The position numbers and the translations under genes were made by a program. Source: Lachnospiraceae bacterium (GTDB lineage: Bacteria; Bacillota_A; Clostridia; Lachnospirales; Lachnospiraceae). From it: 34,100 nucleotides of DNA. A model generated the notes under the pieces. The model was not told where the DNA came from, searched no databases, and saw only the letters and a list, made by a program, of their open reading frames with translations. This document shows positions 9,310 through 34,100 of this stretch, one piece after another. How positions within the stretch are numbered: the stretch's first letter is position 1; each line of letters starts with the position of its first letter. The stretch is taken from positions 1 to 34,100 of the forward strand of contig JAFQCI010000053.1 of the NCBI GenBank assembly GCA_017416505.1, in the 5' to 3' direction.

Positions 9310-10197
9310 ATGTTATTAACAATTGAATATTTGAAAGTACAATATGGAAACCAGATAGCACTTATGATTGAACAGCCCCTACATTTTAATGAGGGAGAAA
9401 GAATTGGTATTATTGGCTCAAATGGTGCAGGGAAAACAACTTTTGTGAAATCCGTGTTAGGTCTTACAAATTACACGGGAAGTATAAAAACACGGATAGA
9501 ACCGAAGCAGATGGCAGTACATATGCAGTTTAATGAATATGTGGGAAGTATGCCGGTTCGATATATTATGGAAGCAATACTGGATACTAAGATTAAGCGA
9601 AATAAACAATTGCAGGAATTAATTGATTTTTTTGATTTTGAAGAATGTTTATCTAAAAAATATAATGCTTTATCAGGAGGGCAGAAGCAACGCTTTACCA
9701 TTATTATGGTGATGCTTCAGAATGCGAAACTTACTTTTTATGATGAGGTAACTTCAGGACTTGATTTTGAAACGAGGCGGAAGCTGATGGCAAAGCTTAC
9801 AGAATGGTATCGGGATAAAAATGATACCCTGTTTATTGTATCCCATTATTATGAAGAATTGGAGCAGATGGCAGATAAAATTTTAATTTTGGATAAAGGA
9901 AAAGTAATTGCTTATGGAAAAAAAGAAGAACTGTTCCGGAAGTATTGTGGAAACGGCATTTTTATTTTGGAAAATTCGGAAGAAAACAGGAAACTGGCTG
10001 AGAATTTTTCAAGAATAAAGGCACCGGAAAATTTACTTGCCGTATCTTGTAAGAAGAAAGAAGAAGAGAAAAAACTGATTCAGTTGCTAGTAGAAGAGGA
10101 TGTGAATTTTAAAAGAAGTAATAACGACATTGAAATTATGTTTATTAATGCAAAGGAACATTATTATAAAAGTAGGAAAGAGGGAGAAAATTCATGA
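9310..10197 (+). CDS. ABC transporter ATP-binding protein (ABC-2 type exporter)
   Basis: 295 residues from the ATG at 9310; AGAAAGG lies 9 bases before it, whereas an in-frame ATG at 9301 abuts that site. It has Walker A GSNGAGKTT, the signature LSGGQKQR, Walker B LTFYDEVTSGLD and the switch His in IVSHYYEE. It energises the permease encoded directly downstream. The last 80 residues or so extend past the ATPase core, as in many drug and antibiotic-peptide exporters of this class. The ATGA overlap with the next gene shows translational coupling. The substrate is unknown; control by the upstream two-component system suggests an envelope or antimicrobial stress role. Confidence 0.87.
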   Translation: MLLTIEYLKVQYGNQIALMIEQPLHFNEGERIGIIGSNGAGKTTFVKSVLGLTNYTGSIKTRIEPKQMAVHMQFNEYVGSMPVRYIMEAILDTKIKRNKQLQELIDFFDFEECLSKKYNALSGGQKQRFTIIMVMLQNAKLTFYDEVTSGLDFETRRKLMAKLTEWYRDKNDTLFIVSHYYEELEQMADKILILDKGKVIAYGKKEELFRKYCGNGIFILENSEENRKLAENFSRIKAPENLLAVSCKKKEEEKKLIQLLVEEDVNFKRSNNDIEIMFINAKEHYYKSRKEGENS

Positions 10198-10964
10198 AAG
10201 AAAAGAAATGTAATCTAAATTTGATATTATATGAATTGCGCAATATAAATGGTAATTTCTATGTTCATTTTTTCGGAATGGTATTTCCTGTCCTTATGTC
10301 TGTTATTTTTGCGAAAGTATATGGGAATCAGGTACCGGAAGCAATTCGATTGGAAGTTGTAACCTCCGTTGCGATTGGCATGAGTATGATGTGTCCTATG
10401 TCCGTTGTTTTAATTGGCTATGCAGCAAACTACTCTCAAGAAGTAGAAAAGGGTGTGCCTTTAAGAATGCGGTTGTTTGGTTATCAAGAAAAAAGTATGA
10501 TTTTAGCGAAATTAATTGCACAGTTAATTTTTCTCACCATTGCTTTGATAGTTTATGGTGTGGCAGAGGTACTTTTCATTGATATGCTAAAACCAGCCAT
10601 TTCATCTTTATTTTGTCTTGTTGGATGTTTGTATCTTCTTGCGATTATTTTCTTTGTTATGGCACACGCAATAGCAGAACTTTTAAAGAAATTTGGTCCA
10701 ACTTATGCAGTTTCCATGGGGCTTTACTTTGGTTTTATGATTTTATGTGGAATGATGGGAATATCCACTTCCCAGCTTCCAAAAGCATTGCAGGTCGTTT
10801 CAAGAACACTTCCTATGAGTTACATTGGAAACGATTTTGTGGATTTCTGGCAAGGAGGCAGTTATAATTTTGTACCTCTTATTCAGTCTTTCCTATTCAT
10901 GGGTGCAGTGTCCGGAATCCTTCTGATTTTTTCGGTGTATAAAAATAAAAGAGTGGTTAATTAG
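10194..10964 (+). CDS. ABC-2 type transporter permease
   Basis: 256 residues with six predicted membrane helices, starting at about residue 23 (FYVHFFGMVFPVLMSVIFAKVY) and ending at about residue 247. This is the usual size and layout of ABC-2 permeases. The stretch MSYIGNDFVDFWQGG before the last helix is the conserved region often ending LP..Y. Its start overlaps the stop of the ATPase gene by four bases. The two should form a dimer of heterodimers in the membrane. A strong terminator follows at 11076. Confidence 0.83.
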   Translation: MKEKKCNLNLILYELRNINGNFYVHFFGMVFPVLMSVIFAKVYGNQVPEAIRLEVVTSVAIGMSMMCPMSVVLIGYAANYSQEVEKGVPLRMRLFGYQEKSMILAKLIAQLIFLTIALIVYGVAEVLFIDMLKPAISSLFCLVGCLYLLAIIFFVMAHAIAELLKKFGPTYAVSMGLYFGFMILCGMMGISTSQLPKALQVVSRTLPMSYIGNDFVDFWQGGSYNFVPLIQSFLFMGAVSGILLIFSVYKNKRVVN

Positions 10965-11075
10965 TAGAAATTTTTTTGAGAATTTTAGAAGAGTTGTATT
11001 TCCTATGCTTTACATTGACTTTACGAAGTTGGTGTAGAGCATTTTAAGAAATTAAATATGAAATCTGAAATAAAA

Positions 11076-11117
11076 ACGAGGTATTCCAAGCACAAGCGGT
11101 GAATACTTCGTTTTTTT
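11076..11117 (+). terminator. Intrinsic terminator after the ABC exporter
   Basis: ACGAGGTATTC (11076-11086) pairs with GAATACTTCGT (11101-11111), with one G-U pair, followed by seven Ts. Confidence 0.87.
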
Positions 11118-11148
11118 GCGTAAGATAGAATAAAAGATGAAATGAAAG

Positions 11149-11177
11149 TTGAAAGCATCTGAATGCTATAGTATAAT
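11149..11177 (+). promoter_or_regulatory. Sigma-A type promoter
   Basis: TTGAAA (11149-11154), a 17-base spacer and TATAAT (11172-11177). It drives the anchored protein gene starting at 11241. Confidence 0.75.
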
Positions 11178-11240
11178 TGAAATGTTATCAGGGGCAAAAG
11201 CAAACAGAAAAAGGTTGTTTTATTGAGAAGGAGAGAAGTT

Positions 11241-11777
11241 ATGAGTAAAAAAACAAAAATAACAGCTGCAATATTAGCTGTAATAGCAATCGTAATCGTA
11301 GTAGTTTTTATTTTCAAAAATCAGTCCCATCCATATAGTACAGATGATTTATATCAAAATATGCAATGGGGAATGAGTCCTGGTGAAGTAAAATCGAAAG
11401 CGATTGACCTGGGTGAAACATGGGACGATATTCCTGTCGATTTGGGAGAAAGAATTGTTTATAAGGCAGAAGGTACAAATTTTGACGGAAATGAAGGCAT
11501 CAATTATCAGGTAATTTACATATTCAAAGAAGAAAAATTGTGGTCTGTATATTTGAAATTTGAAGCTGATAATTGTAATGTTGACTTGGATAAGTTTTTT
11601 AAGCAGCTATCGAAAGGTTTTGATAGTAAGTATGAAAAGTCAGAACTATTAGATAGTGAGGAAGAAGGATTTGAAACCTGGGAATCTGACTGTTCAGTGA
11701 TTAATTGTTTTAAATTTTCTTCCTCGACTTTGAGTTTGATATATGAAAAGATAGAGACAAAAGAAGAATATAAATAA
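11241..11777 (+). CDS. Membrane-anchored protein, unknown function
   Basis: 178 residues from the ATG at 11241, which follows GAAGGAGAG; an in-frame TTG at 11223 would place this site inside the gene. Residues 7-28 are one hydrophobic anchor (ITAAILAVIAIVIVVVFIF). The outer part is acidic and has WGMSPGEVKSKAIDLGE, a motif seen in small secreted proteins that begin a domain with 'MSxxEVK'. No catalytic pattern is visible. It has its own promoter and probably a terminator (11877-11909), so it is likely a single-gene unit. Confidence 0.6.
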   Translation: MSKKTKITAAILAVIAIVIVVVFIFKNQSHPYSTDDLYQNMQWGMSPGEVKSKAIDLGETWDDIPVDLGERIVYKAEGTNFDGNEGINYQVIYIFKEEKLWSVYLKFEADNCNVDLDKFFKQLSKGFDSKYEKSELLDSEEEGFETWESDCSVINCFKFSSSTLSLIYEKIETKEEYK

Positions 11778-11876
11778 TAGAATACTAGGGTCAAAAGGTC
11801 ATATTTTTCATGCTTGCATAAAGAAACATGATTTCCCATGGAGAATATCATCTGAAAACGGAAATCCTTATAAAAT

Positions 11877-11909
11877 AAAGGTTGCAACCAATGGTAGCAG
11901 CCTTTTTTT
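11877..11909 (+). terminator. Intrinsic terminator
   Basis: AAAGGTTGC (11877-11885) pairs with GCAGCC plus Ts (from 11897) around an 11-base loop, followed by seven Ts. It ends the single-gene unit before the MacB-like operon. Confidence 0.72.
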
Positions 11910-11948
11910 GATGTTGTAAAGTGATATAGCTGGCTGAAACCGGGGGTC

Positions 11949-11960
11949 TTTTGTTAGGAT
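11949..11960 (+). promoter_or_regulatory. Probable -10 region of the FtsX-type ABC operon
   Basis: TTTTGTTAGGAT includes TG plus one base before TAGGAT (11955-11960). The same 12 bases occur at 9235-9246 in the other ABC promoter. The TTCAT repeats are missing here and no clear -35 is seen, so any activator should differ. Confidence 0.4.
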
Positions 11961-12009
11961 GAAATAGTCATAAAGAGAGCAGTGCAACAAAAAAAGAAAG
12001 GATAAGAAA

Positions 12010-12777
12010 ATGATGAAGGAAAAAGAGAAGATTATTTCAACAAAAGACTTAAAAAAGAGTTTTGGAACCGGAGAAATGAAACAAACCATTTTTGAACATA
12101 TGGATTTAGAAATTTATAAAGGAGATTTTACTGTATTAATGGGTTCTTCAGGAGCAGGAAAATCCACACTTTTATATTCACTATCCGGCATGGACCGGCC
12201 AGACGAAGGAAAAATTTTATTTTGTGGTGAAGATATTACTTCCTATCATGATGATAAACTGGCGGTGTTTCGTAGAAAGAAATGCGGATTTGTATTTCAA
12301 CAGATTTATCTTCTAGAAAAAATGAGTCTGATGGATAATGTACTGACTGCCGGACTTTTAGTAAACCGTAATAAAAAAGAAGTAGTAGAACGGGCAAAGG
12401 AACTGTTTCAAAAGGTAAATATTCCGGAAATTACATGGAAAAAATTCTCCACTCAGATTTCCGGAGGAGAAGCACAAAGAGCTGGTATTGTCCGGGCGGT
12501 CATTCATAAGCCGGAAGTTTTGTTTGCAGATGAACCTACCGGGGCATTAAATTCCAATCATTCCGATGCGGTTTTGGATGTATTTAGTGAGCTAAACAGG
12601 GAAGGACAAAGTATTATCATGGTAACCCATGATAAAAAAACAGCCTTGCGGGCAAATCGTGTGATTTATCTGAAGGATGGAAAAATCTTTGGAGAGTGTG
12701 AATTGGGAGCTTATAAAAAAGAAGATGAACTTCGAAAGAAAAAGCTGGATGATTTTCTGATAGAAATGGGATGGTAA
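12010..12777 (+). CDS. ABC transporter ATP-binding protein (MacB/LolD/BceA type)
   Basis: 255 residues. Walker A is GSSGAGKST, the signature is ISGGEAQR (a Glu variant of SGGQ common in this branch), Walker B is VLFADEPTGALN, and the switch His is in IIMVTHDKK. The FVFQQIYLLEKMSLMDNV Q-loop region is typical of MacB/LolD/BceA ATPases, which work mechanically with FtsX-type permeases rather than through a classical channel. AGAAAGG lies 9 bases before the ATG. It pairs with the permease encoded at 12857. Likely roles are peptide antibiotic resistance, or envelope lipid or lipoprotein handling; the substrate is unknown. Confidence 0.88.
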   Translation: MMKEKEKIISTKDLKKSFGTGEMKQTIFEHMDLEIYKGDFTVLMGSSGAGKSTLLYSLSGMDRPDEGKILFCGEDITSYHDDKLAVFRRKKCGFVFQQIYLLEKMSLMDNVLTAGLLVNRNKKEVVERAKELFQKVNIPEITWKKFSTQISGGEAQRAGIVRAVIHKPEVLFADEPTGALNSNHSDAVLDVFSELNREGQSIIMVTHDKKTALRANRVIYLKDGKIFGECELGAYKKEDELRKKKLDDFLIEMGW

Positions 12778-12856
12778 AAAAATCTATGTTCTGCATTATT
12801 TTATAAAAATAGTATCCCGTGATTTGAGGGCAGAAAAAAGAAGATGGAGGATGAAG

Positions 12857-15184
12857 ATGCAACAGACTAAGAATTTAACGATGTATCATTTAAGGAAGGA
12901 AAAGGGGCAATATATTTCCTTTGGTGTAATTTTGTGTTTAACCGCATTCATTATAAATATTGCACTTGTGCTGGTGTTTCAAATGGATAAGGCATATGAT
13001 AAAACCTTTACCAAGCTGAACACTGCCAATATAAATCTATGTATTCCGAAAAGTCAGGATTCAGAGTTGTTAAGAAAGAAAATTGGGGAAATGGCAGATG
13101 TGGAAGTCATAGAAAGCAGAAGTGGAATATTGCTTAATGCCACAGCGAAAGATTTCAGGGAAACAGAGTTTGCCATGAATACGGTATTTTATAATATCGA
13201 CGAAACTTTTGAATTAAATCAGTTTGAAATGATAGAGAAATCGGAAGAAAATTTCGAAAATGCGATTTTTTTACCAAGATATATTGCGGAATTTGGGGAA
13301 TATGAACTAGGAGGAACCATTACTTATCAGATAAATGAGAAAGAGTATACATTTCAAATTGCAGGCATTTTACAGGAAATGCAGTATGGAAATTATGGGT
13401 CAGGATTGATAGGGGTTTATCTTAGTGAGGAATGTTATAATAAATTGTTGGAGGAATCGGAAGTTTATCAGGTCAGTACGTATGCTGTCAAGATAAAAGA
13501 AGGAAAAGATTCTACCAGTGTGTGCAGGGAAATCAATCAGGTTTTGGAAGAGGAACAAATTAAGGTGCATTACAGTAATACAGAATCACAAAACAAACAG
13601 ACCAGAACCATGGTAAGTGATCTGGTTGTAATGATGCTGTTTGTGTTTGCGGTAATTGTATTAGCTGTTTGCCTGTTCTTAAGCCGGTTTCGAATTCGAA
13701 ATATGATACAGGAAGATATGGTTAATTTAGGTGTGTTAAAAGCCATTGGTTATACCGGAAATACCATAATAAAGACCGTAGTATTTCCATACCTGCTTAC
13801 AGGAGGGTTAGCTTCTGTTCTTGGAGTTTTCTTGTCCTATACGGTACTTGGTGCTATGGTGCAGATGTTGACTTTACAGTCGGGTTTTGGTTTTTCTATT
13901 AGTTTTGATATCGTGTCAGGCTTCGTTACTATGATGGTATTACTTGTTATTATTTTACTGACTACCTGGTCAGCAGCAGGAAAAATCAAAAAATTACAGC
14001 CGATTCTTGCAATTCGTGGGGGCGAGGAGAAAGAACATTCTATGAAAAATTATATTCCGATGGATAAAATCAGAGGAAATATACAGATTCTTTTGATTTT
14101 AAAACGGATATTTGGTCAGGCAAAGCAGAATCTTTTATTGTTCTTGGTTTCCTTTGTAATGATGGGGTTGATTGCTTTTGCAGGTACATTGTTTTATAAT
14201 GTTGTGATAAAACCGGAACATTTTTTAAAGACTTTGTCAGAAGAAACACCAGATGTTATTATTAAGATAAAAGAAGAAAGTAGAAATGAAATCAAAAATA
14301 CTTTATTAAAAAATCAAAAGGTGGAGCAGGTACTTTTTTATGGAACGGAAACCATAAAACTAGAAAATGACAGCACAAAGGTCTTTGTTTGCGAAGACTT
14401 TTCTAAGGTAAAAAACGATTTATGCTATGAGGGAAGAAATCCGGAAAATGAAAATGAAATTGCCCTGGGAAGTGCTTTTTCTGAGAAATACCAGGTAGAT
14501 GATTTAATTGAAATTACATCGGATTCCGGCACCCTTACCTATAAAGTTGTTGGTTTTGTTCAAAGTGTAAATTATTCAGGGAATGTCTGCGAATTAACTG
14601 AAGAGGGATATTACAGGATAAAAGGTGAGGGATCATTGACTTCGCTTTATGTATACTTAAGCGATGATGTAAATATAGAAAACTGGATAGATGAAGCAAA
14701 CAATGATTATGAAATGGATATTTTACAGGCAGTAAATTATGTTGAAATGATGGAACAGACTTCAGATATGTATTCCGGTATTGTAAAAATTGCAGTGATT
14801 GCAGTAATGATTCTTACTACACTCATTATCTTTTTAATTTTATATGTTATTGTTAAATCCATCATAGTAAAAAGCAAACAGGAACTAGGGATTTATAAGG
14901 CAATGGGATATTCCAGCAGACAACTGATATTCCAGACAGCAGGAAGTTTTCTTCCAGTAATCGGAGGAGCAGCGATTCTATCGGCTTTACTTGGTTGTGT
15001 ATATATGCCACATATTAACAATCTGATATTTTCAATGGTAGGAGCCATGAAAAATGATTGTGAAGTATCAATAGGAATTTTACTATTGTTTGCTTTGTTA
15101 CAGACAGGAATTAGTTTTGTTTTATGCATCTGGCTGGCATTGCCAATCAGAAAAATATCGGCTTATTCATTGATAAAAGATTGA
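12857..15184 (+). CDS. Large FtsX-domain ABC transporter permease
   Basis: 775 residues from the ATG at 12857, which has GGAGG six bases before it; upstream in-frame starts overlap the site. It is a duplicated FtsX layout. The first half has helix 1 near residue 20, an outer domain to about 255, then three helices to about 390. The second half has a helix near 430, an outer domain to about 640, then three helices to the end, giving about eight in all. FtsX motifs such as LGVLKAIGYTGNTI and LGIYKAMGYSSRQL stand at equivalent places in the two halves. It partners the ATPase at 12010. Unlike BceB, it has two outer domains, so it fits general Firmicute FtsX-type exporters better. Confidence 0.83.
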   Translation: MQQTKNLTMYHLRKEKGQYISFGVILCLTAFIINIALVLVFQMDKAYDKTFTKLNTANINLCIPKSQDSELLRKKIGEMADVEVIESRSGILLNATAKDFRETEFAMNTVFYNIDETFELNQFEMIEKSEENFENAIFLPRYIAEFGEYELGGTITYQINEKEYTFQIAGILQEMQYGNYGSGLIGVYLSEECYNKLLEESEVYQVSTYAVKIKEGKDSTSVCREINQVLEEEQIKVHYSNTESQNKQTRTMVSDLVVMMLFVFAVIVLAVCLFLSRFRIRNMIQEDMVNLGVLKAIGYTGNTIIKTVVFPYLLTGGLASVLGVFLSYTVLGAMVQMLTLQSGFGFSISFDIVSGFVTMMVLLVIILLTTWSAAGKIKKLQPILAIRGGEEKEHSMKNYIPMDKIRGNIQILLILKRIFGQAKQNLLLFLVSFVMMGLIAFAGTLFYNVVIKPEHFLKTLSEETPDVIIKIKEESRNEIKNTLLKNQKVEQVLFYGTETIKLENDSTKVFVCEDFSKVKNDLCYEGRNPENENEIALGSAFSEKYQVDDLIEITSDSGTLTYKVVGFVQSVNYSGNVCELTEEGYYRIKGEGSLTSLYVYLSDDVNIENWIDEANNDYEMDILQAVNYVEMMEQTSDMYSGIVKIAVIAVMILTTLIIFLILYVIVKSIIVKSKQELGIYKAMGYSSRQLIFQTAGSFLPVIGGAAILSALLGCVYMPHINNLIFSMVGAMKNDCEVSIGILLLFALLQTGISFVLCIWLALPIRKISAYSLIKD

Positions 15185-22818: not shown

Positions 22819-24960
22819 TTATTTGAATACAACTTTAACAATATTATCCGTTACTCGTTTAATCACTCTATAACCAGAATCAAAAGTAGTAGCAATACCA
22901 CCATGAGCAACCTTACAATATCCATTAACTTTGCAAGTACCATCATCTCTAACAGATAATACACCCATCATACCAACACAGTCCCACTCAGGTCTATCTT
23001 TACGTTGAACATAAGGTTTGCTAGAGTCATATTCGGGATTTTGTTTACGTCTTATTCCTGTCTTTGTGATAGTAATAAACTTTCCAGTTTTCTCTTCTAT
23101 AACTTCTTCTTTATATTCAAATTCTTCATTGATATATGAACCAAATTCATCTAGTATATATCGACTCATCCAATCTTCATCGCCATTACCAACAACAGAA
23201 GGTTGCCCACTAATAATACCGATAATATAATCTTCAGGGTTTGCTATTCTAATTTTATCACCCTCCAATGTAACAAAATAACCACGCCTATCTTCTCCAT
23301 TAGGATTTCCATCTAGCCATTCAAAGAATTCAGCGTAGTCTGCCCCCGATGTTACATATTCCCCAGCCGCATAAGCTACACCAGAAAAAGTAACTCTAAA
23401 AGCATTAGACGTATTGTTAGCATCAGTACCATTGCCAATTACAAAAGCACTTCCTGTACCTGTGCCTGCCGATGACCCTTTTGTTGCAGTTGTTGTGTTG
23501 TTGAAATGACCTTGTGTATGTTGATTATCTAATGCTGTCGTACAATAACCTTCTGCATGAGAATGTTGTCCAAGTGCATGGGTACTACGTCCTTCTGCGT
23601 GCGAACAACCTCCAGTATACCTGTTTGATGAATCACCAGCAATACAATTACTACCCTCCACATGACTTGCATAACAATATACGTATGTATTATAACCTTC
23701 TGCGTGGCTATAGTAAGTAGCATATGTATTTCTGCCTTCAGCGTGAGAACCCATTTCAGCCTTTGTTTCAATTCCTTCTGCATGAGAACTATCTCCTAAT
23801 GCCTGAGTACCTGAGCCCTCTGCGTGGGATTTATCACCAGAAGCCGTCGCACCATAGCCCTCTGCATGAGAATATTGTCCAGAGGCATTTGAGTAATTTG
23901 AAGCAAATGAGTAATTTCCAGTTGCTTTACTACTTCCTCCTATAGAAACGCTATTAGTTGACCCCATAATACGAAATAAATAACTTCCATCATAATTTCT
24001 AACAAGAAATTCTTTATCATATGAACTAAACATAAATGCTTTAGGGTCATAAACTGTTTGATAAGTTTCTGTAATTATATTTCCATTTGCATCTTGTGTT
24101 GCTTTTGTAGCAGAATCAACATTACTTGTTAATAATGCTAAAGTTCCATTGGCATTAGGAAGAAAAATTTCTCTATTTACACCATTGCCATTGCTTGCTA
24201 AAAGTCTTGCATGCCCCCCATCTTTACCTAATAAAGATATTGCTCCATATCTATACTTATAGCTAGGAGAAATACCCTTAATGCTTCCAAGAATTAATTC
24301 TGAATATCTAAGATTATTAGTATTGTCGTCTACGGTTTTATATAACAACCCTTCATTGTTTAACAACATTTTATATCCACTTGAAATCTCTTCATGAAAT
24401 GGAATAGTATATGTTGTTTCAATTGTAGGGTTTGTCAATTCACTGTATATTTTTTTAATTTCCATAGAAACCCCTAAATTACCAATCTCATTTTGAACAA
24501 ATTCAGTAGTTGCAATTTGAGTGGTGTTAGTTCCCAAGTCGGCAGTAGGAGCTTCGGGTACTCCTGTTAATGCAGGGCTTTCTAATGGTGCTTTATTATC
24601 TAATTGAGTTTGCACATTTTCTGTTATTTCACTTAATGAATTTAATTCAGATGTTTTTACAATAATTCCATTCAAAACATTTAACTCATCAGCAGTTGTC
24701 AATAAATCAGATAAATTGCTTAACGTATGATTATGAGAATTATCTTTTACACTAACATTACCATCATTATCAACTTCAATGTCTGTCCCTGACTTTACAA
24801 GCCCTAATTCATCTTCTCTTGCAACAATTGTTTTATCAACTTTATTATTTTCTATATTAGTTGCTCTACTTGTTTCTTTTCCAATTTCATCTTTGATATA
24901 AGATTTCATTTTTTCTGTATGACTTTGCAATCCTTCAAAATCTAACGCATTTTCAATCAC
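22819..24960 (-). CDS. Tail fibre with SHAEG repeats and autoproteolytic chaperone domain
   Basis: 713 residues, starting at GTG (24960) after AAGGGAGGAATG. Residues 1-165 are a helical virion-attachment part with PLESPALTGVPEAPTA, a phage fibre motif. Residues 364-483 hold seven SHAEG units and one SHVEG, mostly 14 residues apart, of the YadA-like beta-roll type; this is usually a trimeric fibre. Residues about 538-713 (SGADYAEFFEWLDGNPNG, EDRRGYFVTLEGDKI) match the Peptidase_G2 intramolecular chaperone, as in the appendage protein of phi29. That domain cuts itself off after helping the trimer fold. Likely role: host recognition. Confidence 0.83.
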   Translation of the reverse strand: MIENALDFEGLQSHTEKMKSYIKDEIGKETSRATNIENNKVDKTIVAREDELGLVKSGTDIEVDNDGNVSVKDNSHNHTLSNLSDLLTTADELNVLNGIIVKTSELNSLSEITENVQTQLDNKAPLESPALTGVPEAPTADLGTNTTQIATTEFVQNEIGNLGVSMEIKKIYSELTNPTIETTYTIPFHEEISSGYKMLLNNEGLLYKTVDDNTNNLRYSELILGSIKGISPSYKYRYGAISLLGKDGGHARLLASNGNGVNREIFLPNANGTLALLTSNVDSATKATQDANGNIITETYQTVYDPKAFMFSSYDKEFLVRNYDGSYLFRIMGSTNSVSIGGSSKATGNYSFASNYSNASGQYSHAEGYGATASGDKSHAEGSGTQALGDSSHAEGIETKAEMGSHAEGRNTYATYYSHAEGYNTYVYCYASHVEGSNCIAGDSSNRYTGGCSHAEGRSTHALGQHSHAEGYCTTALDNQHTQGHFNNTTTATKGSSAGTGTGSAFVIGNGTDANNTSNAFRVTFSGVAYAAGEYVTSGADYAEFFEWLDGNPNGEDRRGYFVTLEGDKIRIANPEDYIIGIISGQPSVVGNGDEDWMSRYILDEFGSYINEEFEYKEEVIEEKTGKFITITKTGIRRKQNPEYDSSKPYVQRKDRPEWDCVGMMGVLSVRDDGTCKVNGYCKVAHGGIATTFDSGYRVIKRVTDNIVKVVFK
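23512..23871 (-). repeat. SHAEG coding repeats
   Basis: About 42-base repeats coding for SHAEGxxTxAxGxx in the tail fibre. They are in frame and diverged, so they are protein repeats rather than a CRISPR array. Confidence 0.75.
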
Positions 24961-25001: not shown

Positions 25002-25553
25002 TTAAAACAAGGAATCAATTTCGCTTTGTGTAATAGCTCTAAGTTCTGGCAATGTTTCTGCTTTTTCTAAAGCATCGTTCAGAGCAAGAAACTCGTCTTT
25101 AAAATTGTATAATGTTTCTACTTTAAGTAACGCATTTTCTAATGTAGTAAATTCATCTTTAGATATAATATCATCATTACTAGTCGAAGATTTAATTACA
25201 TTGACAATAAAATGCATCGTATGAATAACTTGCGCATCATCAATATTAATAAGCATTAATTCTGCTTCATTTCTTCCAAATGAGGAGCACATTTGCTCAG
25301 TTAATGTTAATCTTATTGTTCCATTGTCCAGTAGGTTTTCTTGCAAAATATCATTTAATACTATAGAACCATCACTTTTAGAGTATTTTATTTTTATTAA
25401 AATTTTTGATGTATCTATTGTATAAGGTACACCATTATCTGTAATCTGAATGATAATATCTCTTGAATTAATATCATTTTGTGCAACTCTGGTTGAAACA
25501 AATTTATTGTTATATAAATCTAATGTTATTTTTTTTTGCGTGCCAAAAGCCAT
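25002..25553 (-). CDS. Baseplate upper protein, BppU-like N-terminal domain
   Basis: 183 residues from the ATG at 25553, with AAGGAGGAG before it; a longer in-frame reading to 25613 overlaps the previous gene and is rejected. Residues 1-130 (KKITLDLYNNKF, RDIIIQITDNGVPYTIDTSK, LNDILQENLLDNGTIRLTLTEQM) match the beta-sandwich N-terminal domain of BppU. In lactococcal phages that domain joins receptor-binding fibres to the baseplate. The remaining 50 residues are helical and may meet the fibre encoded next. BppU in the model phages has a longer C-terminal stalk, so this form is short. Confidence 0.78.
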   Translation of the reverse strand: MAFGTQKKITLDLYNNKFVSTRVAQNDINSRDIIIQITDNGVPYTIDTSKILIKIKYSKSDGSIVLNDILQENLLDNGTIRLTLTEQMCSSFGRNEAELMLINIDDAQVIHTMHFIVNVIKSSTSNDDIISKDEFTTLENALLKVETLYNFKDEFLALNDALEKAETLPELRAITQSEIDSLF

Positions 25554-25565
25554 AAACTCCTCCTT

Positions 25566-25599
25566 AAAAAGAAAAGAGCCTAAATAATAGACTCTTTTT
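25566..25599 (-). terminator. Hairpin between tail genes
   Basis: On the minus strand AAAAGAGTC pairs with GGCTCTTTT with one mismatch, followed by TCTTTTT. It lies across the stop of the preceding tail gene and before the BppU gene. It may reduce, not end, transcription. Confidence 0.55.
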
Positions 25600-27016
25600 A
25601 AGGTGTTCCCCAAATTTTATCAGTTAAAGGTAAATTGAAATAAAATTTTGACCCATCATGATGATTATGAAACACCAACTTTATATTCATTGTTCTATTT
25701 GTTGAATCCCAATCGCCAAAGATATATTCTAGTCCATACCTTTCATTGTTATCCGTTTTTGTCCATGTAGCCCAAGTATCATATCCAGAACCATACAACC
25801 AATTTTTCATATGCACTTCACCATTATTAGTTACCCAAAATGTAGCCATGTCTGTTTCGTAGTCATAACCTGTCCAGAAAGCCCACTTATTATTATTGCC
25901 TATACCCGTTGTCAATGGCATTTTTTCTGTAGGCAATGTTTCCAAATAATAGCTGCCACTAATTTTGCTATAATAAAGCTTAAACTCACCAATCTGTCCA
26001 CCAGTAATATTTATATCACTTGCGGTGACGCTTCCGTTTTCATCAACAGTAAATGTTCCATTACCATTAGAAATTTTTGTTCCAATAATTTCTCCACCGT
26101 TGATTGTCTTACCATAAATATTTACACCTAAAATATTTTCTGCATCAACACTCCCAGCATGTACTTCTAGTGCATTGATATATTCCGTTGTAACAGTATC
26201 CTTCGTTATTGTTGTAACATGCTCATCTAAATCAGGACTACTTATTTTTAACATTTCACCATCAAAAGTTAATGCACCGCCACCAAAACTAAAAGTGCCA
26301 TCTTTTAAATTGATATATGTACCAGTAGTAGAAGAGTAGTTTTCTGAGTAGATTTCTCCCCCGATTAACTGCGAACCGTAAATATGCCCAGATGTCACAA
26401 ACTCACTAGTTAATAAATGATAATTATTTGCATTGGCATATTTAATATTTTTTTCTAATAACCTAATTTTTGAGAAAGAATTAGGAGAAGAATATAAATA
26501 TAAATATCCACCAAGACATTCATTAACAATACTATTATAGGTATCAAAGTAAATATCGTGTATAGGCTTTTTCATTAAAATATTTTCTTTTGCTAACTGA
26601 AAATTCTCAGAAGTTTTATATCCACCACATATTACCCTGATATGTTCAGAATATGGATATGTAATAATGTTAAAATTATTATATTGAGATAATTGATATA
26701 CTGTACTATTTGAATAGTCAGCTATTAAAATCTCTATACTATAATATTCGTCTTGTATATCACTATAATTTTCAATCAAATATTTTTTCAATTTCTCAAC
26801 ACAAATAAAGTGTGTAAATTGATTTTTAATCCAATCTACACACTTATAAGCATTATTCATATTTCCTGAACAAAAAAAAACTTGTTCTCCAATACAAAAC
26901 AATTTTTGAGCATCATCAAAACAACGCTTAAAACCAGTATTGGTTTTTACAGAGCAAGCACTATCTGCACCTATAAACATATTATTTCCTTGAGTTATAA
27001 TTAAACAAGCACTCAT
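25598..27016 (-). CDS. Tail protein with N-terminal proteasome/HslV-like (Ntn) domain
   Basis: 472 residues. Residues 2 to about 195 follow the layout of HslV and proteasome beta subunits. After loss of Met, Ser is residue 1, Asp is residue 17 in FIGADSACS (as in HslV), and Lys37 in QKLFCIG matches Lys33 of proteasome KLFxI. SGN near residue 50 and ICGGYKTSENFQLAKEN near residue 128 match the glycine turns. N-terminal Ser is known in the HslV-like CodW. Residues about 200-340 are phage-fibre strands (GGEIIGTKISNGNGTFTVDENGSVTA), and the C-terminus is a beta domain. The gene overlaps the nuclease gene by four bases (ATGA). Activity and target are inferences; it might be only a structural relative. 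Confidence 0.68.
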   Translation of the reverse strand: MSACLIITQGNNMFIGADSACSVKTNTGFKRCFDDAQKLFCIGEQVFFCSGNMNNAYKCVDWIKNQFTHFICVEKLKKYLIENYSDIQDEYYSIEILIADYSNSTVYQLSQYNNFNIITYPYSEHIRVICGGYKTSENFQLAKENILMKKPIHDIYFDTYNSIVNECLGGYLYLYSSPNSFSKIRLLEKNIKYANANNYHLLTSEFVTSGHIYGSQLIGGEIYSENYSSTTGTYINLKDGTFSFGGGALTFDGEMLKISSPDLDEHVTTITKDTVTTEYINALEVHAGSVDAENILGVNIYGKTINGGEIIGTKISNGNGTFTVDENGSVTASDINITGGQIGEFKLYYSKISGSYYLETLPTEKMPLTTGIGNNNKWAFWTGYDYETDMATFWVTNNGEVHMKNWLYGSGYDTWATWTKTDNNERYGLEYIFGDWDSTNRTMNIKLVFHNHHDGSKFYFNLPLTDKIWGTP

Positions 27017-28686
27017 ACAGTTTCACCCACCTTCCAGTCATCTAAAATTATTTCTGTATATTTTTTATCTGTGTAAATAAGTTTGTTTATTGATTCAAAT
27101 AATTGTTCTTCAGTAGGCAATTTATGTCCAGATTTTATTCTTAAAATTTTCCAGCCTTCAGATTTAAAGTGTTCGTCTCTACGTCTATCACTTTTTTGAT
27201 TTTGATGCCAATACCATCCATCATACTCAATATCAATCTTTGTATTATCTGTCCAAAGAGCTACATCAAAACAACATCTACCTTCTGGATGGTTTAATAT
27301 ACAATTATCATATTTCTTTTTAATTAATTTATAAATATGTAATTGTTGAGATGATGTTGAAACTATGTTGTTTTCCGATAAAGTTTTAAGTCTTTTGTTA
27401 ATAACTTCTGGAGATTTATTAGGATTTTCTACACCATATTTTTCTAAAAAGGTTTGTTTAGCCTTTTCATATATAATTGGTGATTGCAATGGATATTCAA
27501 CATCATATCTTTCCAAACAAGTATTTTTATATTGTTCTTTATACTCTTGTGTTTGAGAGTAATATTCAACACCATATTTATTCATACATGTTTGTCTAGC
27601 CTTTTGTTTTACTTCTGATAAAATAGAAGGGGTTTCAACACCATATTTACTTAAGTTGGTCTGTTTTATTTTTTCTTGTATCATTTTAGAGGCAAAAGGG
27701 TTTTCTACTCCATATTTATCGAGCCAAGTTTGTATTGCCTTTTGTTTGATTTCAGGAGATAATAAAGGATACTCATTTCCGTATTTTTCAACACATGTGG
27801 CTTTTCTTTTTTCTTGAATTTCTGGTGATAAAGATATATGTTCAACACCATATTTTTCTAAAGTGGTATTCTTAACTTTTTCTTTAAATTCATCTGTTTG
27901 CGAATAATATTCTGTTCCATATTTCTCCAAACAAGTTTGTCTTGATTTCTCTCGAAAAAAATCAGTAAGAAATATATTTTCAACACCATATCTTTCTAAA
28001 TTAGTTTTTTTAGCTTTATCTAATATTTCAGCAGATAAAAAGGGGTTCTCAACGCCATATCTCTCAAGACAAGTTTGTTTTGCTTTATTTTTAACTTCCT
28101 CTGACTGCATATTATGTTCAACACCATATCTTTCGATATTTGTTTGTTTTATTTTTTCTTTAACGGAGTCTAATTGAGTCACACAATCGACTCCGTATTT
28201 TTCCTTGACGGTATTTTTGATTCTAGTTCTTACTTCTGGCGAAGATAAAAATGTTTTTACCCCATACTTTTCCATGCAAGTTTTTTCGGTCTTTTCTTTA
28301 AATTCATCCGTCTGAGAATAGTGTTCGACTCCATAGCGTTCTAAGCAAGTTTGTTTTTGCTTTTCTTTTGCTCCAGGTATGTCCATTATGCAATCAACTC
28401 CATATTTTTCTTTAACTGTTTTTCTTGCCTTTACACCTTTACTACAAGATTCACAATAATCTATTCCATTATTTGTGCATTTAATATATAATTTATAACT
28501 ACGACTAAATTCAGCATTACAATTATCACATATTAACTTTATTTCTGTATGACTACCTTTTGTTAAGTGACATACTGGAACAGTTAATTCACTTTTTACA
28601 TCTTTTACATCGTAGCCTAAATCTCTATAATGCTTAATGGTCTTTCCACTCATTTTAACTTTTACATATTGATTTGGAATTAGCAT
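27013..28686 (-). CDS. Zinc-ribbon, 15-repeat PD-(D/E)XK nuclease-like protein
   Basis: 557 residues. A zinc ribbon (C53xxC56, C78xxC81) comes first. Fifteen tandem 23-residue repeats (95-439) follow, with a consensus like YGVExxxxSPEVKEKAKQTCLEK. The C-terminus (about 465-530) has FDVALW, IDIEYDGWYWH and GWKILRI, a Vsr/DUF559-type PD-(D/E)XK fold, so a DNA endonuclease is expected. Similar repeat-nuclease proteins occur in phages as homing-type endonucleases. Here the gene overlaps its neighbours by seven and four bases, so it is built into the tail operon. The repeats differ mostly at positions 5-8. DNA binding by the repeats is an inference. Confidence 0.75.
   Translation of the reverse strand: MLIPNQYVKVKMSGKTIKHYRDLGYDVKDVKSELTVPVCHLTKGSHTEIKLICDNCNAEFSRSYKLYIKCTNNGIDYCESCSKGVKARKTVKEKYGVDCIMDIPGAKEKQKQTCLERYGVEHYSQTDEFKEKTEKTCMEKYGVKTFLSSPEVRTRIKNTVKEKYGVDCVTQLDSVKEKIKQTNIERYGVEHNMQSEEVKNKAKQTCLERYGVENPFLSAEILDKAKKTNLERYGVENIFLTDFFREKSRQTCLEKYGTEYYSQTDEFKEKVKNTTLEKYGVEHISLSPEIQEKRKATCVEKYGNEYPLLSPEIKQKAIQTWLDKYGVENPFASKMIQEKIKQTNLSKYGVETPSILSEVKQKARQTCMNKYGVEYYSQTQEYKEQYKNTCLERYDVEYPLQSPIIYEKAKQTFLEKYGVENPNKSPEVINKRLKTLSENNIVSTSSQQLHIYKLIKKKYDNCILNHPEGRCCFDVALWTDNTKIDIEYDGWYWHQNQKSDRRRDEHFKSEGWKILRIKSGHKLPTEEQLFESINKLIYTDKKYTEIILDDWKVGETV
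27370..28404 (-). repeat. 15 tandem 69-bp coding repeats
   Basis: Residues 95-439 of the nuclease-like protein, each unit starting at the YGV (or YGT, YGN, YDV) motif. The spacing is exactly 69 bases with no indels. The repeats are diverged at DNA level but in one frame. Confidence 0.85.
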
Positions 28687-31259
28687 AAAGACACCCCCTT
28701 AATAATAGAAGAGATTACTTTATCATTACATAATCCATATGCTGTGTCAGTAGTAAACTTTTCTCCATCATAATAAACATAATCATGCTTACCAAGACCA
28801 AGGGAACAAGTCTTCCAGTTATCTTCAGTAAAGGCTAAAATGTTATGTGTCACCCTTAACTGTTCTTGAGAATAACTGTCAGAAATATCATCATAACTTT
28901 TACAAAACAAACCTTGATTTCCAAACGTAACTTCTTCCTTCTCATTATTTTTAATTCTAACAAGTGCAGAATTTAAGCCATATTTTACCCAATCATTTAT
29001 TTCTTCACTACTTTTTTCGCCTTTACTAGCTTGTTTGCTCACATATGAAAAATTAGTACTCATACTTTTTGCAGAATCTAAAATTTCATTGATATCACTA
29101 CCAACACCTTTAACCTTAGTAACATCAGAAAATTCAACCTCAAGCGTTTGAATAGAAGAGAAGGATAATGCATATCCAATTAAACGCAATCTATAAATAT
29201 CATTATCTACACGTATTCTAATCCAATTACCTAATTCGAACTTATCTATAATAGGTTTAAATTCAGGTATCACAAGTAAGTTGTAAAGTGTAGTAGAAAT
29301 ACTATGTCGATACGTGGCAGCTTTTATTAATTCTTCGTTTGCGACATCTATAAACTCCCTAGCATGTTCAATAATTTCTGAATCAGTTAATCCATCAGAA
29401 ATATAATTAGTATTTTGATAAGTATCTTCACGCCTATAAGCACAAAAGATTTTATACAAATTTTCTCCAAGATAATTTTCAAGATTTAACTCTTTTTGAA
29501 TTTGAGCCTGTTGCGAAGAAGAAGTTTCATAAATTTGTGTCCATTCATCAATAGTTGACTGTCTTTCATCTATTTCACTTTGACATGCTTGCAATTTTTT
29601 GTAGTATGGAAGATATAATACTTCATAAAGTTCTGCGCTTGCATTAGCTTGATTAACTTCAATTAACGTATCCATTGCTGTTTGTATCGCTTCATAAAAG
29701 GAAGTAAGACGATTTAGACAATAATAGGATAGAGCATTACTAAAATCATCTAGGTCTTCAATAGATAATACATCAAATATTGAACCTTCTTTATCATCAG
29801 TCGCAATATTTTTCATTATTTTTTGCTCAATGAAAGATTGGTAGTCATCATAAACTTTTACTCTAATATTTGAAGTGTAAGCAACATCTTCTTTGTCGGA
29901 GTTATTAGTTATTTTAAAATTACCAACCCAAACTCCATAACTATGTCCGTCTATATCTATACCAATATAATTATATGCACTGTTATTAATTTCCAACTTT
30001 ACATATCCTGTTTTAATAAAAACCTTTGCGTAATTTTTTAATGCACTTTCAATGGTAGATATACTGGTGTGTTCATTGACAGTAGCTAAACCTAATAGGT
30101 TTAAATTTGATGATGTTAATTTATCGGCTTCAGTTTTTGCAGTTACTTTTGATTGCTCAATAGTTGGCAACATTGAATGAGTATAATAATTTATTTTATC
30201 TATCGACTCGTAGATATTATTTATAATCTCTTCATAACCATCCATTCTTGACAAATACAATTCATCATAACTATTTAACTTGTCTACTAATTCTTGTGGC
30301 ATGTCTTTTTTTTGTTCATCAGTAATATATACAATATTGTCACTTCCATTTGCATTAAGCAGACGAACAGTGGATGTCATAATATCATCGCCAGCAACTA
30401 ATTTAAGACAGTTTTTCACAGAATCCATATCTGTTGTGAATTGAATTTCTTCTGTGAGGTTTTCTTTGTCAACAAAAATAGTGGTATCTGTTCCAAAATA
30501 TTTTATATTTCTACTCCCACATTCAGGACAGATATAATTATCACTAACCCCATCTGAAAAATTATGCGAGTCGGCTCTATGCCCACAATCTTCACATACA
30601 GTATATAAGTCATAAACATATACTTCTCGTGTCGTAGAATCAAATTTAAAGATACAATTAAATTGCTTTGCACAATCACCTGTTAAAAAGTCATAAACAG
30701 AAGTACCATCAACACTAAAACTTCTTTGTAAATTAATTAAGCTTGAATCTACATGTTTAAGAGTATAATGTGGCACATAAGATAGAACTCTATGGAGCAA
30801 TGAACCCTCTGTATTTTCCCAGTTATAAAATGTCGTGATTACATAATCATCTCTGGCAATATCTGATTCAGTATTAACTTCTAATCCATTTATGTAAGTT
30901 TGAGATAATTCTGATTCACACAAAGAAGTAGCAGTGATAGTTTTCTTGATATTTTCGTTAGAATCGTCCAATGAAACTGTGATTTCAAAGTATTCATTTA
31001 ACTCCTTGACATAAACCAATTTTAAATCAACAATATCATTCCATAACGATTCATTTATGTTTTTGTCTTTTTTCTTATAGGATTTGTAAACTTCAAATTG
31101 AATATCATTAGCACTATTTAAATGTGCATTATAAACAACACTTTCACGATTAATATTTGAAATTGCACCCAAATGTCTATAATCCCTAGTAGACAATATA
31201 AAAGTAAAGTCTTCGACGTTATTATTAACATCAAAGACCAGTTTATTTCCAATTCCCAT
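28680..31259 (-). CDS. Phage tail protein, Tal-like (tail endopeptidase family position)
   Basis: 859 residues. It directly follows Dit with a one-base gap, the place of the tail-associated (Tal/gp18-type) protein that closes the tail tube and contacts the cell surface. The N-terminal 400 residues are beta-rich and resemble the phage minor structural, endopeptidase-tail N-terminal domain. A zinc ribbon (C222xxC225, C244xxC247) is inserted there. A long helical region (about 385-660) suggests a coiled coil. I see no peptidoglycan-hydrolase motifs, so a lytic role is unsupported. The ATG at 31259 follows CAGGAGAAA. Confidence 0.72.
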   Translation of the reverse strand: MGIGNKLVFDVNNNVEDFTFILSTRDYRHLGAISNINRESVVYNAHLNSANDIQFEVYKSYKKKDKNINESLWNDIVDLKLVYVKELNEYFEITVSLDDSNENIKKTITATSLCESELSQTYINGLEVNTESDIARDDYVITTFYNWENTEGSLLHRVLSYVPHYTLKHVDSSLINLQRSFSVDGTSVYDFLTGDCAKQFNCIFKFDSTTREVYVYDLYTVCEDCGHRADSHNFSDGVSDNYICPECGSRNIKYFGTDTTIFVDKENLTEEIQFTTDMDSVKNCLKLVAGDDIMTSTVRLLNANGSDNIVYITDEQKKDMPQELVDKLNSYDELYLSRMDGYEEIINNIYESIDKINYYTHSMLPTIEQSKVTAKTEADKLTSSNLNLLGLATVNEHTSISTIESALKNYAKVFIKTGYVKLEINNSAYNYIGIDIDGHSYGVWVGNFKITNNSDKEDVAYTSNIRVKVYDDYQSFIEQKIMKNIATDDKEGSIFDVLSIEDLDDFSNALSYYCLNRLTSFYEAIQTAMDTLIEVNQANASAELYEVLYLPYYKKLQACQSEIDERQSTIDEWTQIYETSSSQQAQIQKELNLENYLGENLYKIFCAYRREDTYQNTNYISDGLTDSEIIEHAREFIDVANEELIKAATYRHSISTTLYNLLVIPEFKPIIDKFELGNWIRIRVDNDIYRLRLIGYALSFSSIQTLEVEFSDVTKVKGVGSDINEILDSAKSMSTNFSYVSKQASKGEKSSEEINDWVKYGLNSALVRIKNNEKEEVTFGNQGLFCKSYDDISDSYSQEQLRVTHNILAFTEDNWKTCSLGLGKHDYVYYDGEKFTTDTAYGLCNDKVISSIIKGVSLC

Positions 31260-31260
31260 A

Positions 31261-32127
31261 TTAAATTTCTCCTGTTTTGCAAATAGGAGAGTAGCTTAGA
31301 TAAATATTGCATGGCAACGTTACTGTAAAAATATTTTTTACTTCATCTTCCTCATTATCCACTTCATAATAATCATTACTCTCACCACATTTGTTAATTA
31401 TTTTTACAAAATTATAATTAAAATCGTTACATAAAGTCGGATGCTCTTTATCAGATAAGATTATTTTATTTTCTCCATTTAGTGTAATGATTTCTCCTCT
31501 AATGCAATTTTTAACCTCGACAACATTTGATTCTTGTGAGTTTTTAATTTGTAAATCTCCGTCTTCTAAAACTTCGATTTTTAAGGTATTAGGATATATA
31601 TATCCGATTTCATCTGAACTATCATAAATAACAAACTCATCAGATACGTTACTAAAATCCATTTCATAACTAAGTGGTTCATAATATCCGAATGGAGCAT
31701 TAGCTGTAAATGTCAATTCTAAGCCAACAACATCACTGCCTATTTTAATCTTTTTAATTGTATTGAAAGTTCCTTGGTAATATATATTTCCACTTTGCCC
31801 GCCACTATCAATTGTTTTAAATTTATAGTAGCCCCTTTTATTTAACCATCTCATAAGTTTATTAATTTCATTGTTTTCAAAATATTGCTCCCCACCTCTG
31901 ATACGTTCGCAGGGATGTTTGCATATTTGAAACGAAATAGAAAATGGTGCGCTATAACTTGTAGACATTAATTCAAACTTATGGGTACTATGTTTATAAA
32001 TAGTATTCAGATTTAATTCGTTGCCTGCACTTACTGTTTCAGTGCCAGACGCTCCACCAAAGGTACAAACCATACACCCAAAATCTGAAAGTCTTTGCCC
32101 GTTGTATTCAAAATCAATAAAAGACAA
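31261..32127 (-). CDS. Distal tail protein (Dit)
   Basis: 288 residues. The N-terminus MSFIDFEYNGQRLSDFGCMVCTF and PFSISFQICKHP, with a later LMRWLNKRGYYKFKTI, fit the phage tail-component family that forms the Dit hexamer at the tail tip. The C-terminal half is a beta domain (EITLNG-like stretch) of the galectin type. The start is TTG (32127) after AAAGGAGG; the nearby ATG is in another frame. It is the first gene after the hairpin at 32180-32205, which implies either readthrough or a promoter I cannot identify. Confidence 0.8.
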   Translation of the reverse strand: MSFIDFEYNGQRLSDFGCMVCTFGGASGTETVSAGNELNLNTIYKHSTHKFELMSTSYSAPFSISFQICKHPCERIRGGEQYFENNEINKLMRWLNKRGYYKFKTIDSGGQSGNIYYQGTFNTIKKIKIGSDVVGLELTFTANAPFGYYEPLSYEMDFSNVSDEFVIYDSSDEIGYIYPNTLKIEVLEDGDLQIKNSQESNVVEVKNCIRGEIITLNGENKIILSDKEHPTLCNDFNYNFVKIINKCGESNDYYEVDNEEDEVKNIFTVTLPCNIYLSYSPICKTGEI

Positions 32128-32858: not shown

Positions 32859-34100
32859 TTACCTATAGAAATTACTTCTGTCAGTTCTTCCAAGGAAACT
32901 TGACCCTATCTTTTCTGTAAGTAATTTTTGTGTTTTTGTGTCTGTTATTATTGTATTTCTTAATTGTTTTGCAAATTCTTGTGGGTTATTCACTCCATAC
33001 ATCTGAATATCACCCAACTGAATATTTACATTCTGATTTGGTGCTACACGTTGTATTTCAGGCATTTTAGTCATACTTGAAATATTAGGTATAGCAAATT
33101 CAACTGGTTTCAAACCAGATAATCCCAACTTAGCCATATAACCTTCTGGGTCTTGTGAAAACTCCCATAACTTCTGAGATGCTTCATTAGTAAATACCAT
33201 ATCGCCCTTACCAACTACTTTTAATACACCTTCAGAAGAATCAAGTTGAACTTCTTGCCCTTTTTCTCCCACCAATGCTAATTGGTCTTCAGGAATGCGT
33301 TTACTTCCCTTTGCATATTCATAAAGTGGCAAACCATCTAAAGGTTTGGTATCCATAGTCCAACCTGCTTCATCCAACCATTTACCATCAGCACCGACCC
33401 AGTAATACTTGCCATTATGTCCAATCCATGTATTAGTTAACATCTTGCCACTCTTAGCAACAAAATAATCATCTATCCATTGATTTTCAAGCATATTGCC
33501 ATCATCGTCGAAGGAATACCACTCATTTGAGCCATCTGTCCATCCTAACTTATGCCAACCTGTAACAGCAGCACCAGTACCATCTACATAACTCCAAGTA
33601 CCAGAATCATTCTTAATCCATTGGTTGGTATTCATGTCCCCGTTTTCATCTAAATGATACCATTTATTATCCTTATCATACTTTGTCCATGAGTCTTTAA
33701 CTTGTTCGCCGTCTTTATAATAGTTCCAATTTCCACTATCATTTTTTGTCCAAGTTCCCTTGGTTGTGGCAATGTCTTTTTCAGACTTTTCAACAGAAGC
33801 TATTTTGTCACTAGCAGTCTTATCAGATGTTCCAGCGATTAAACTACGAATAGCATCAACACTTGCTTGTAACGTAGTCATTGTTTCAAGGAAGTTATCG
33901 TTATAGTCACTTACTAAGTTTCCTATACCATCGCCTGCTGAATTAAATGCGTTGGCTAATTTACTTGAAATAGTATATCCTACATCATCAGCAGATTCCT
34001 TGATTGTTTCGTTGATTTCACTTGCGTTTTCGTTGGTTGAATCAATAACATCACTTACAAGTTGAGACAAATCGTCAAGACGCTGATTTACGAATTCCTC
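32859..34100 (-). CDS. Tape-measure protein C-terminus with cell-wall-binding repeats, 5' end beyond window
   Basis: The frame is open to the right edge, giving 413 visible residues. A helical part comes first. Next is a stretch (33357-33758) of aromatic repeats such as GTWTKNDSGNWNYYKDGEQV and NQWIKNDSGTWSYVDGTG, of the CW-binding (choline/glucan-binding) type. Then follows the usual tape-measure ending, with YAKGSKRIPEDQLALVGEKG and VGKGDMVFTNEASQKL. The last 80 residues are helical. A tape measure sets tail length and may leave the tail at DNA ejection. Wall-binding repeats inside one are unusual. The window edge hides the start and most of the coiled coil. Confidence 0.76.
   Translation of the reverse strand, partial: EEFVNQRLDDLSQLVSDVIDSTNENASEINETIKESADDVGYTISSKLANAFNSAGDGIGNLVSDYNDNFLETMTTLQASVDAIRSLIAGTSDKTASDKIASVEKSEKDIATTKGTWTKNDSGNWNYYKDGEQVKDSWTKYDKDNKWYHLDENGDMNTNQWIKNDSGTWSYVDGTGAAVTGWHKLGWTDGSNEWYSFDDDGNMLENQWIDDYFVAKSGKMLTNTWIGHNGKYYWVGADGKWLDEAGWTMDTKPLDGLPLYEYAKGSKRIPEDQLALVGEKGQEVQLDSSEGVLKVVGKGDMVFTNEASQKLWEFSQDPEGYMAKLGLSGLKPVEFAIPNISSMTKMPEIQRVAPNQNVNIQLGDIQMYGVNNPQEFAKQLRNTIITDTKTQKLLTEKIGSSFLGRTDRSNFYR

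Follow-up and report, generated by a model that had tools for sequence, protein, structure and literature searches.

In the window, which is the whole 34,100-nucleotide stretch of Lachnospiraceae DNA that was analysed, a mobile DNA-cutting gene seems to have split a phage tail gene into two parts, and models and conserved residues suggest that the downstream half begins with a catalytically intact-looking proteasome fold. The most likely job of this Ntn enzyme, on our analysis, would be to act on, and perhaps to stitch itself to, the upstream half of the tail protein Tal. The open reading frame concerned (25598-27016) encodes 472 residues on the minus strand, which corrects the strand in an earlier, sequence-only reading. 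That reading had described a proteasome/HslV-type domain fused to ordinary phage fibre sequence; the fusion holds, and the fibre part can be refined to the 3' half of the Tal gene, whose two halves are separated by a homing endonuclease gene (Table 1).

Table 1. Tail module of the window, read 5' to 3' on the minus strand.
Feature	Coordinates	Strand	Basis
Choline-binding-repeat protein	32859-34070	-	
Dit-like distal tail protein	31261..32127	-	DUF6558 E 7.9e-36; phrog_33 Dit E 1.8e-7
TalN, upstream half of Tal, 859 aa	28680..31259	-	42% identity to residues 18-931 of unsplit P0062
C-terminal tail of TalN, 17 residues (LCNDKVISSIIKGVSLC + stop), after invariant Gly	28680..28733	-	CN motif in split TalN
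Homing endonuclease gene between Tal halves	27013..28686	-	phrog_12131 homing endonuclease E 5.8e-85; DUF7487, DUF559
Ntn (proteasome-beta-like) domain, predicted, residues 1-190; Ser2, Asp18, Lys38, Gly51	26447..27016	-	AF2 models; Foldseek/VIA-align; conservation
Linker, residues 191-218, with junction between HL and LTSEFV after residue 201	26363..26446	-	pLDDT <50 over 192-217; junction located by comparing the protein with unsplit P0062
TalC, fibre-like C-terminal half of Tal, residues 219-472	25598..26362	-	39% identity to P0062 from residue 916; phrog_7660 tail fibre E 7.7e-7
BppU-N baseplate protein, next tail gene	25002..25613	-	PF10651 E 7.3e-16
Fibre with Peptidase_G2 domain, after the BppU-N gene	22819-24960	-	

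A picture of the undivided protein is given by P0062, an unsplit relative of 1284 aa, to which the two window proteins align on either side of one point. At this junction P0062 reads KYG followed by LTAEFVQAGHINGSTIIGG, TalN reads AYG followed by LCNDKVISSIIKGVSLC and a stop, and the Ntn protein reads YHL followed by LTSEFVTSGHIYGSQLIGG; the junction is exact on the TalC side. The last codons of TalN overlap the start of the endonuclease gene, and the stop codon of the endonuclease overlaps the ATG at which the Ntn gene starts. Elsewhere in the module, the choline-binding-repeat protein stands upstream of Dit at the place expected for the tape-measure gene, and residues ~219-255 of TalN (CEDC...CPEC) resemble a Zn ribbon, with Pfam matches that are weak and fall under the cut-off.

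The same gene order is found in the Psychrobacillus phage Perkons, as ORF187 (TalN), ORF186 and ORF185 (annotated as a putative tail fiber protein), and the middle genes of Perkons and the window are homologous at both ends. Brevibacillus phage Sundance has a single Tal of 1610 aa, which matches the 136,811-base Perkons record with residues 4-268 and 449-828 in one frame and with residues 815-1187 in the following frame; one extra weak match (266-445, 25%) lies in another gene, and no unsplit Tal copy was found in that record. Perkons is an isolated temperate siphophage (PMC8951557), so the two pieces of its Tal presumably work. Tal is broken at the corresponding residue in two distant families (window against P0062, Perkons against Sundance). 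A third split case, the IMG/VR locus L013, consists of TalN, a gene of 350 aa and then an Ntn fibre, which brings to three out of three the loci with DNA at which a gene lies between the halves. The middle gene of L013 has weak zinc-finger and DUF2726 matches below cut-offs, and we read it as a putative homing endonuclease or other nuclease. Compared with its relatives, in which it is contiguous, the window gene reads as a homing-endonuclease-split phage gene, in two frames with an endonuclease gene between them. Perkons also has a reverse transcriptase (PF00078) downstream of its tail genes (L002:21055-22131(+)).

No significant match for the Ntn domain was obtained by sequence-only searches for its fold (Pfam, NCBIfam, PDB sequences and hhalign against two ClpQ sequences). 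PF00227 (Proteasome) matched neither P0001 at E up to 1 nor eight relatives at E up to 0.5, and in 12 genomes it gave one match each, never at the Ntn locus. Comparison of folds was therefore needed to recognise the domain. AF2 models compared with Foldseek/VIA-align predict a proteasome beta-like fold, as the sequence-only reading had expected, and equivalents of Thr1/Ser1, Asp17, Lys33 and Gly47 are all present, the first three at the residues it had named (Ser1, Asp17 and Lys37 after Met removal). These residues do not vary freely: in 76 non-redundant relatives (matches shorter than 150 aa removed, clustered at 90%), Ser or Thr occupies the nucleophile position in 71 of 71 aligned sequences, Asp and Lys are found in 75 of 75 each, and Gly51, the Gly47 equivalent, in 76 of 76. 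Ser/Thr, Asp, Lys and this presumed oxyanion-hole glycine stay invariant while identity to the window protein drops to ~20%. By predicted fold and active site, the domain fits the proteasome-like family as described in PMC8665760.

The model has helices at 53-66 and 73-84 and none between strands 21-25 and 28-33. The five best matches in BFVD are proteins of 181-257 residues, one of them named Proteasome subunit, and among the best 50 none had a name and match suggesting the Ntn-tail architecture. No connectase is among the fold matches listed, which is uninformative either way. A start-codon artefact at position 2 was considered and rejected, since all 71 sequences aligned there carry Ser or Thr; among the five relatives unaligned at that position, L058 begins Met-Thr, and P0041 and L097 are cut. 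By our own reading of starts, a Ser follows TTG in L089 and GTG in L090, which are also among the five, and the Ntn fibre at L013:6001 apparently starts at an ATT a few bases past AGGAGGT, giving Met-Ser-Thr-Val. Cys4 is present in all 15 gut-type Ntn proteins of alignment A1 (which excludes P0002) and a Cys at tail position 2 in 11 TalN tails, while the Ntn proteins of Perkons and L013 lack Cys4; a paired role of the two cysteines is possible. Of the other alignments, A6 comprises 21 selected sequences, and A7 excludes P0002, P0003, P0029, P0031, P0041, the P0047 fragment and the unsplit Tal rows.

The upstream half ends in a conserved tail. A protein search with residues 560-859 of the window TalN gave 1281 matches, and among the best 120, 12 end within 60 residues of the junction and 108 do not. 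Among these matches, Gly followed across the junction by [LV]CN is found in 11 of the 12 split TalN and in none of the 106 unsplit Tal (out of 108) that could be placed there, all 106 of which have Gly before the junction. The 11 end in [LV]CN[EDN] plus 12-13 more residues, 16-17 in total; P0076, the one listed split TalN that lacks the motif, may be cut by its contig end. Mean pairwise identity of the 11 is 64% over tail positions 1-10, 59% over 11-16 and 54% over the preceding 280 residues. In the window, the DNA of the last TalN residues holds a purine-rich, ribosome-binding-like stretch and the endonuclease ATG, so the end of the tail may be conserved for the next gene. The whole tail was accordingly rejected as a protein signal: the ribosome-binding site and start of the following gene account better for its last six residues (12-17), and only about 11 are left to argue for selection at the protein level. 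The CN motif is missing from the tail of Perkons (19 residues), which is partly similar only, and from that of L013 (17), which has largely diverged. A likeness between the end of Perkons TalN (NACI) and the start of the window Ntn protein (SACL) was set aside, as this TalN end overlaps the endonuclease start codon. The longest contig has the same length for TalN P0116 and Ntn P0008 (37,243) and for TalN P0164 and Ntn P0009 (10,218), which suggests that each pair lies on one contig.

Methionine aminopeptidase prefers small second residues, and removal of Met would expose Ser1 of Ntn-TalC. The Ntn domain would then recognise the tail of TalN, and Ser1 would attack the Gly-Leu bond that follows the invariant Gly, with release of the tail and transfer of TalN to Ser1. 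An O-to-N acyl shift would yield TalN-Gly-Ser1-Ntn-TalC, an arrangement like the amide-linked connectase intermediate, and the split tail tip would be rejoined at the protein level. We put this covalent attachment of TalN to Ser1 after tail removal at slightly less than an even chance. Ligation is preferred over hydrolysis because the enzyme is fused to the very part that needs attachment, because the substrate tail starts where the missing half should start, and because connectase, which has the same fold, forms an amide bond with its substrate and sets a C-terminal peptide free (PMC11961121; PMC11745163). Points against it include the following: genes split by homing endonucleases, such as nrdA of Aeh1, work without an added enzyme domain (PMC2988022), and the helical insertion of connectase is absent from the Ntn model. 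Full trans-splicing, in which the Ntn domain is excised and native Tal restored, was rejected, as the residues before the junction (HL, FL, YL, HC and others) show no clear cleavage motif.

Simple cleavage, or docking with no covalent bond, would give the same sequence signature as ligation. The Ntn domain might be a maturation protease that cuts the C-terminal tail of TalN, or another tail protein, by hydrolysis during assembly, the halves being held together by shape; we regard this as unlikely, if the strongest competitor. The conserved triad and TalN tail are equally expected under it, and both HslV and the proteasome hydrolyse (PMC8665760). The Ntn gene also follows a PF10145 tape-measure gene in four genomes (directly in G484, G498 and G598, with one 80-aa ORF between in G596), as might suit a maturation enzyme. 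However, removal of a tail derived from the split has no obvious use unless joining is helped, and the enzyme, being fused to TalC, stays at the joint. It is improbable that the domain is a docking module that binds the TalN tail and bridges the halves by itself, with catalysis vestigial or serving something else. Polypeptides from homing-endonuclease-split genes can indeed reassemble into working enzymes (PMC2988022), but the invariance of Ser/Thr, Asp, Lys and Gly at such low identity would then be hard to account for.

Members of the Ntn family also occur outside split Tal genes. In four overlapping sets of genomes, the Ntn profile matched 37 of 394 (family of G002), 2 of 25 (genus of G003), 3 of 398 (phylum draw) and 1 of 113 (order of G182). 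Scans of genome contigs gave no locus with the A1 profile and eight Paenibacillus loci with A5; those of viral contigs gave one with A1, three with A5 and only L001 again with A9, and no match with P0001, the window TalN or A8. A tblastn search with P0001 matched two of 50,697 annotated phage records, one of them over the fibre stretch only. In several Paenibacillus members the Ntn gene follows a tape-measure gene, as above, or an SU10-type capsid gene (directly in L077 and L106, with one 195-aa ORF between in L090), with no adjacent split Tal, so joining TalN is not the whole story of the family. Two further arrangements were seen. L091 has tandem Ntn-type genes, a stand-alone one of 201 aa (9646-10251(+), PF00227 E 1.2e-7) and then a tail-type one (10278-11375(+)); in L083 (G704) the Ntn domain (10105-10773) and fibre half (10770-13136) are in overlapping frames that break just past the junction (GERVYGK, then QV and stop), through either a frameshift or a natural split.

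In seven of the eight genomes with Paenibacillus loci, the strong match to Sundance Tal begins only at residue 695-815, at the Ntn gene; three of the eight have one more weak match elsewhere, and Sundance-type TalN is absent from G001-G007. The exception is P. agilis: a 140.9-kb contig of this genome carries an entire Tal frame (1623 aa), and its Ntn copy, which is broken, lies elsewhere. For the nine island copies with DNA (L004-L010, G584 and G736), the fibre half was compared with 17 unsplit Tal and shows 56-87% identity to the nearest of them over 662-888 alignment columns; seven of these alignments begin at the junction residue, and the other two begin two and eight residues before it. 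Twelve database Ntn-TalC proteins, whose context is known for some only, are 56-93% identical to unsplit Tal and start at the junction in 11 cases; the 93% case, P0027, is a record of unseen gene context. The fusion point of these standalone proteins is near-exact.

Near the Ntn gene, the Paenibacillus islands show an integrase, regulators, a primase and no recognised capsid or tail set, and in this they may resemble phage-inducible chromosomal islands. The P. tianmuensis neighbourhood includes a tyrosine integrase, an AEP-type primase, AbiH and an HNH endonuclease, and the P. allorhizosphaerae island a large serine recombinase. Head and tail PHROGs gave no match (E up to 0.001) to any of 20 proteins from two islands, and the PF10145, PF06605 and PF04860 matches in the island genomes lie on other contigs or more than 1 Mb away, the G001 contig being only 9.5 kb. 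A NUMOD4-HNH endonuclease gene is common to four of five islands compared (L026:6205-6864(-); ORFs in L027, L031 and L033). Near the P. xylanivorans island, a helicase-like and then a reverse-transcriptase-like gene (L030:3394-7852(+)) are possibly a defence pair.

In the islands, the same protein might act on the Tal of an infecting phage. It is doubtful that it instead poisons the Tal trimer of that phage, with TalC as the bait, and supplies no working fibre. The identity of the nine island TalC to phage-type unsplit Tal would suit such a decoy, as would AbiH in one island and the reverse-transcriptase-like and helicase genes near another, but Perkons, which has the same architecture and in which it holds the only TalC found, would be left unexplained. 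More broadly, we consider it possible, though on balance unlikely, that a mobile unit of homing endonuclease and proteasome-fold ligase invades Tal and the ligase rejoins the protein by its N-terminal serine, in the manner of an intein on an unrelated fold, and that satellite-like islands took the same ligase-fibre protein to attach a fibre half to the Tal of an incoming phage.

The sequence-only reading had also suggested a self-processing or host-cutting enzyme on the virion or in assembly; an assembly role is supported as one option, no evidence was found for host-cutting, and the upstream Tal half of the phage itself is a better-fitting target. A virion-borne hydrolase of host surface polymer or protein, as the tail-tip location and the existence of Ntn amidases might suggest, is very improbable, since the domain sits at the TalN/TalC joint and not at the distal end of the fibre sequence, is kept while fibre parts differ, and would leave the conserved TalN tail unexplained.

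Proteasome homologs were surveyed by Fuchs, Alva and Lupas in 2021, who listed 22 new ones (PMC8665760). Their Firmicute Cluster 4 (FC4) resembles the window protein in coming from Firmicutes and in joining a proteasome-like domain to phage-tail-like C-terminal domains, both of which were found here (eight named Paenibacillus loci, 37 of 394 genomes and tail homology). The window protein is probably a member of FC4 or close kin, by likeness to the description of that cluster (representative WP_076223917.1). The fusion, of which the sequence-only reading knew no description, is a variant of a described family, and its split-gene setting appears new. In the available text, no function-suggesting genomic context is reported for FC4, the table marks Firmicutes and not phages, and nothing is said of a split Tal, a homing endonuclease, a TalN tail or islands (PMC8665760). 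The phage proteasome homologs PPH and AAH share the fold; PPH has just ~140 residues, and neither tail fusion nor split-gene context is told for either in that text (PMC8665760). A literature search for Ntn or proteasome-like domains or protein ligases in phage tails, with most subscription journals outside its reach, listed, beyond PMC8665760, only papers on apparently unrelated subjects, judging from titles and abstracts.

Connectase, a protein ligase of methanogens, shares the proteasome fold, the N-terminal nucleophile and the lack of a propeptide (PMC11961121; PMC11745163), and by analogy the window enzyme would likewise attack just before a conserved C-terminal peptide. However, connectase is without helices H1/H2 and carries an insertion of two helices between S3 and S4, whereas the window model is the opposite on both counts; its nucleophile is Thr and not Ser, and here the cargo is fused to the enzyme, the recognition sequence is another and ligation is drawn from the analogy. 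In nrdA of Aeh1 and gene 60 of T4, too, a free-standing endonuclease splits a phage gene into two polypeptides that must reassemble (PMC2988022). Here, unlike in those cases, an Ntn domain has been added to the second piece, and the first has a conserved tail at its end. Inteins and split inteins associate an endonuclease with a protein-joining activity inside a host gene, as would be the case here. They differ in that the fold here is unrelated, the endonuclease is a separate gene and the proposed joining would leave the Ntn domain in place.

Both the split-gene setting and the conserved tail of the partner seem to be new. They make the ligase idea testable, as an enzyme can be paired with a candidate substrate peptide and the system is present in an isolated phage, Perkons. 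If the proposal is right, it would give a function to a group of proteasome homologs that has none in the available text of PMC8665760, and would add a way for a protein to survive the splitting of its gene other than inteins or passive reassembly. It would also provide a ligase of natural origin that has the proteasome fold and targets a short, conserved sequence.
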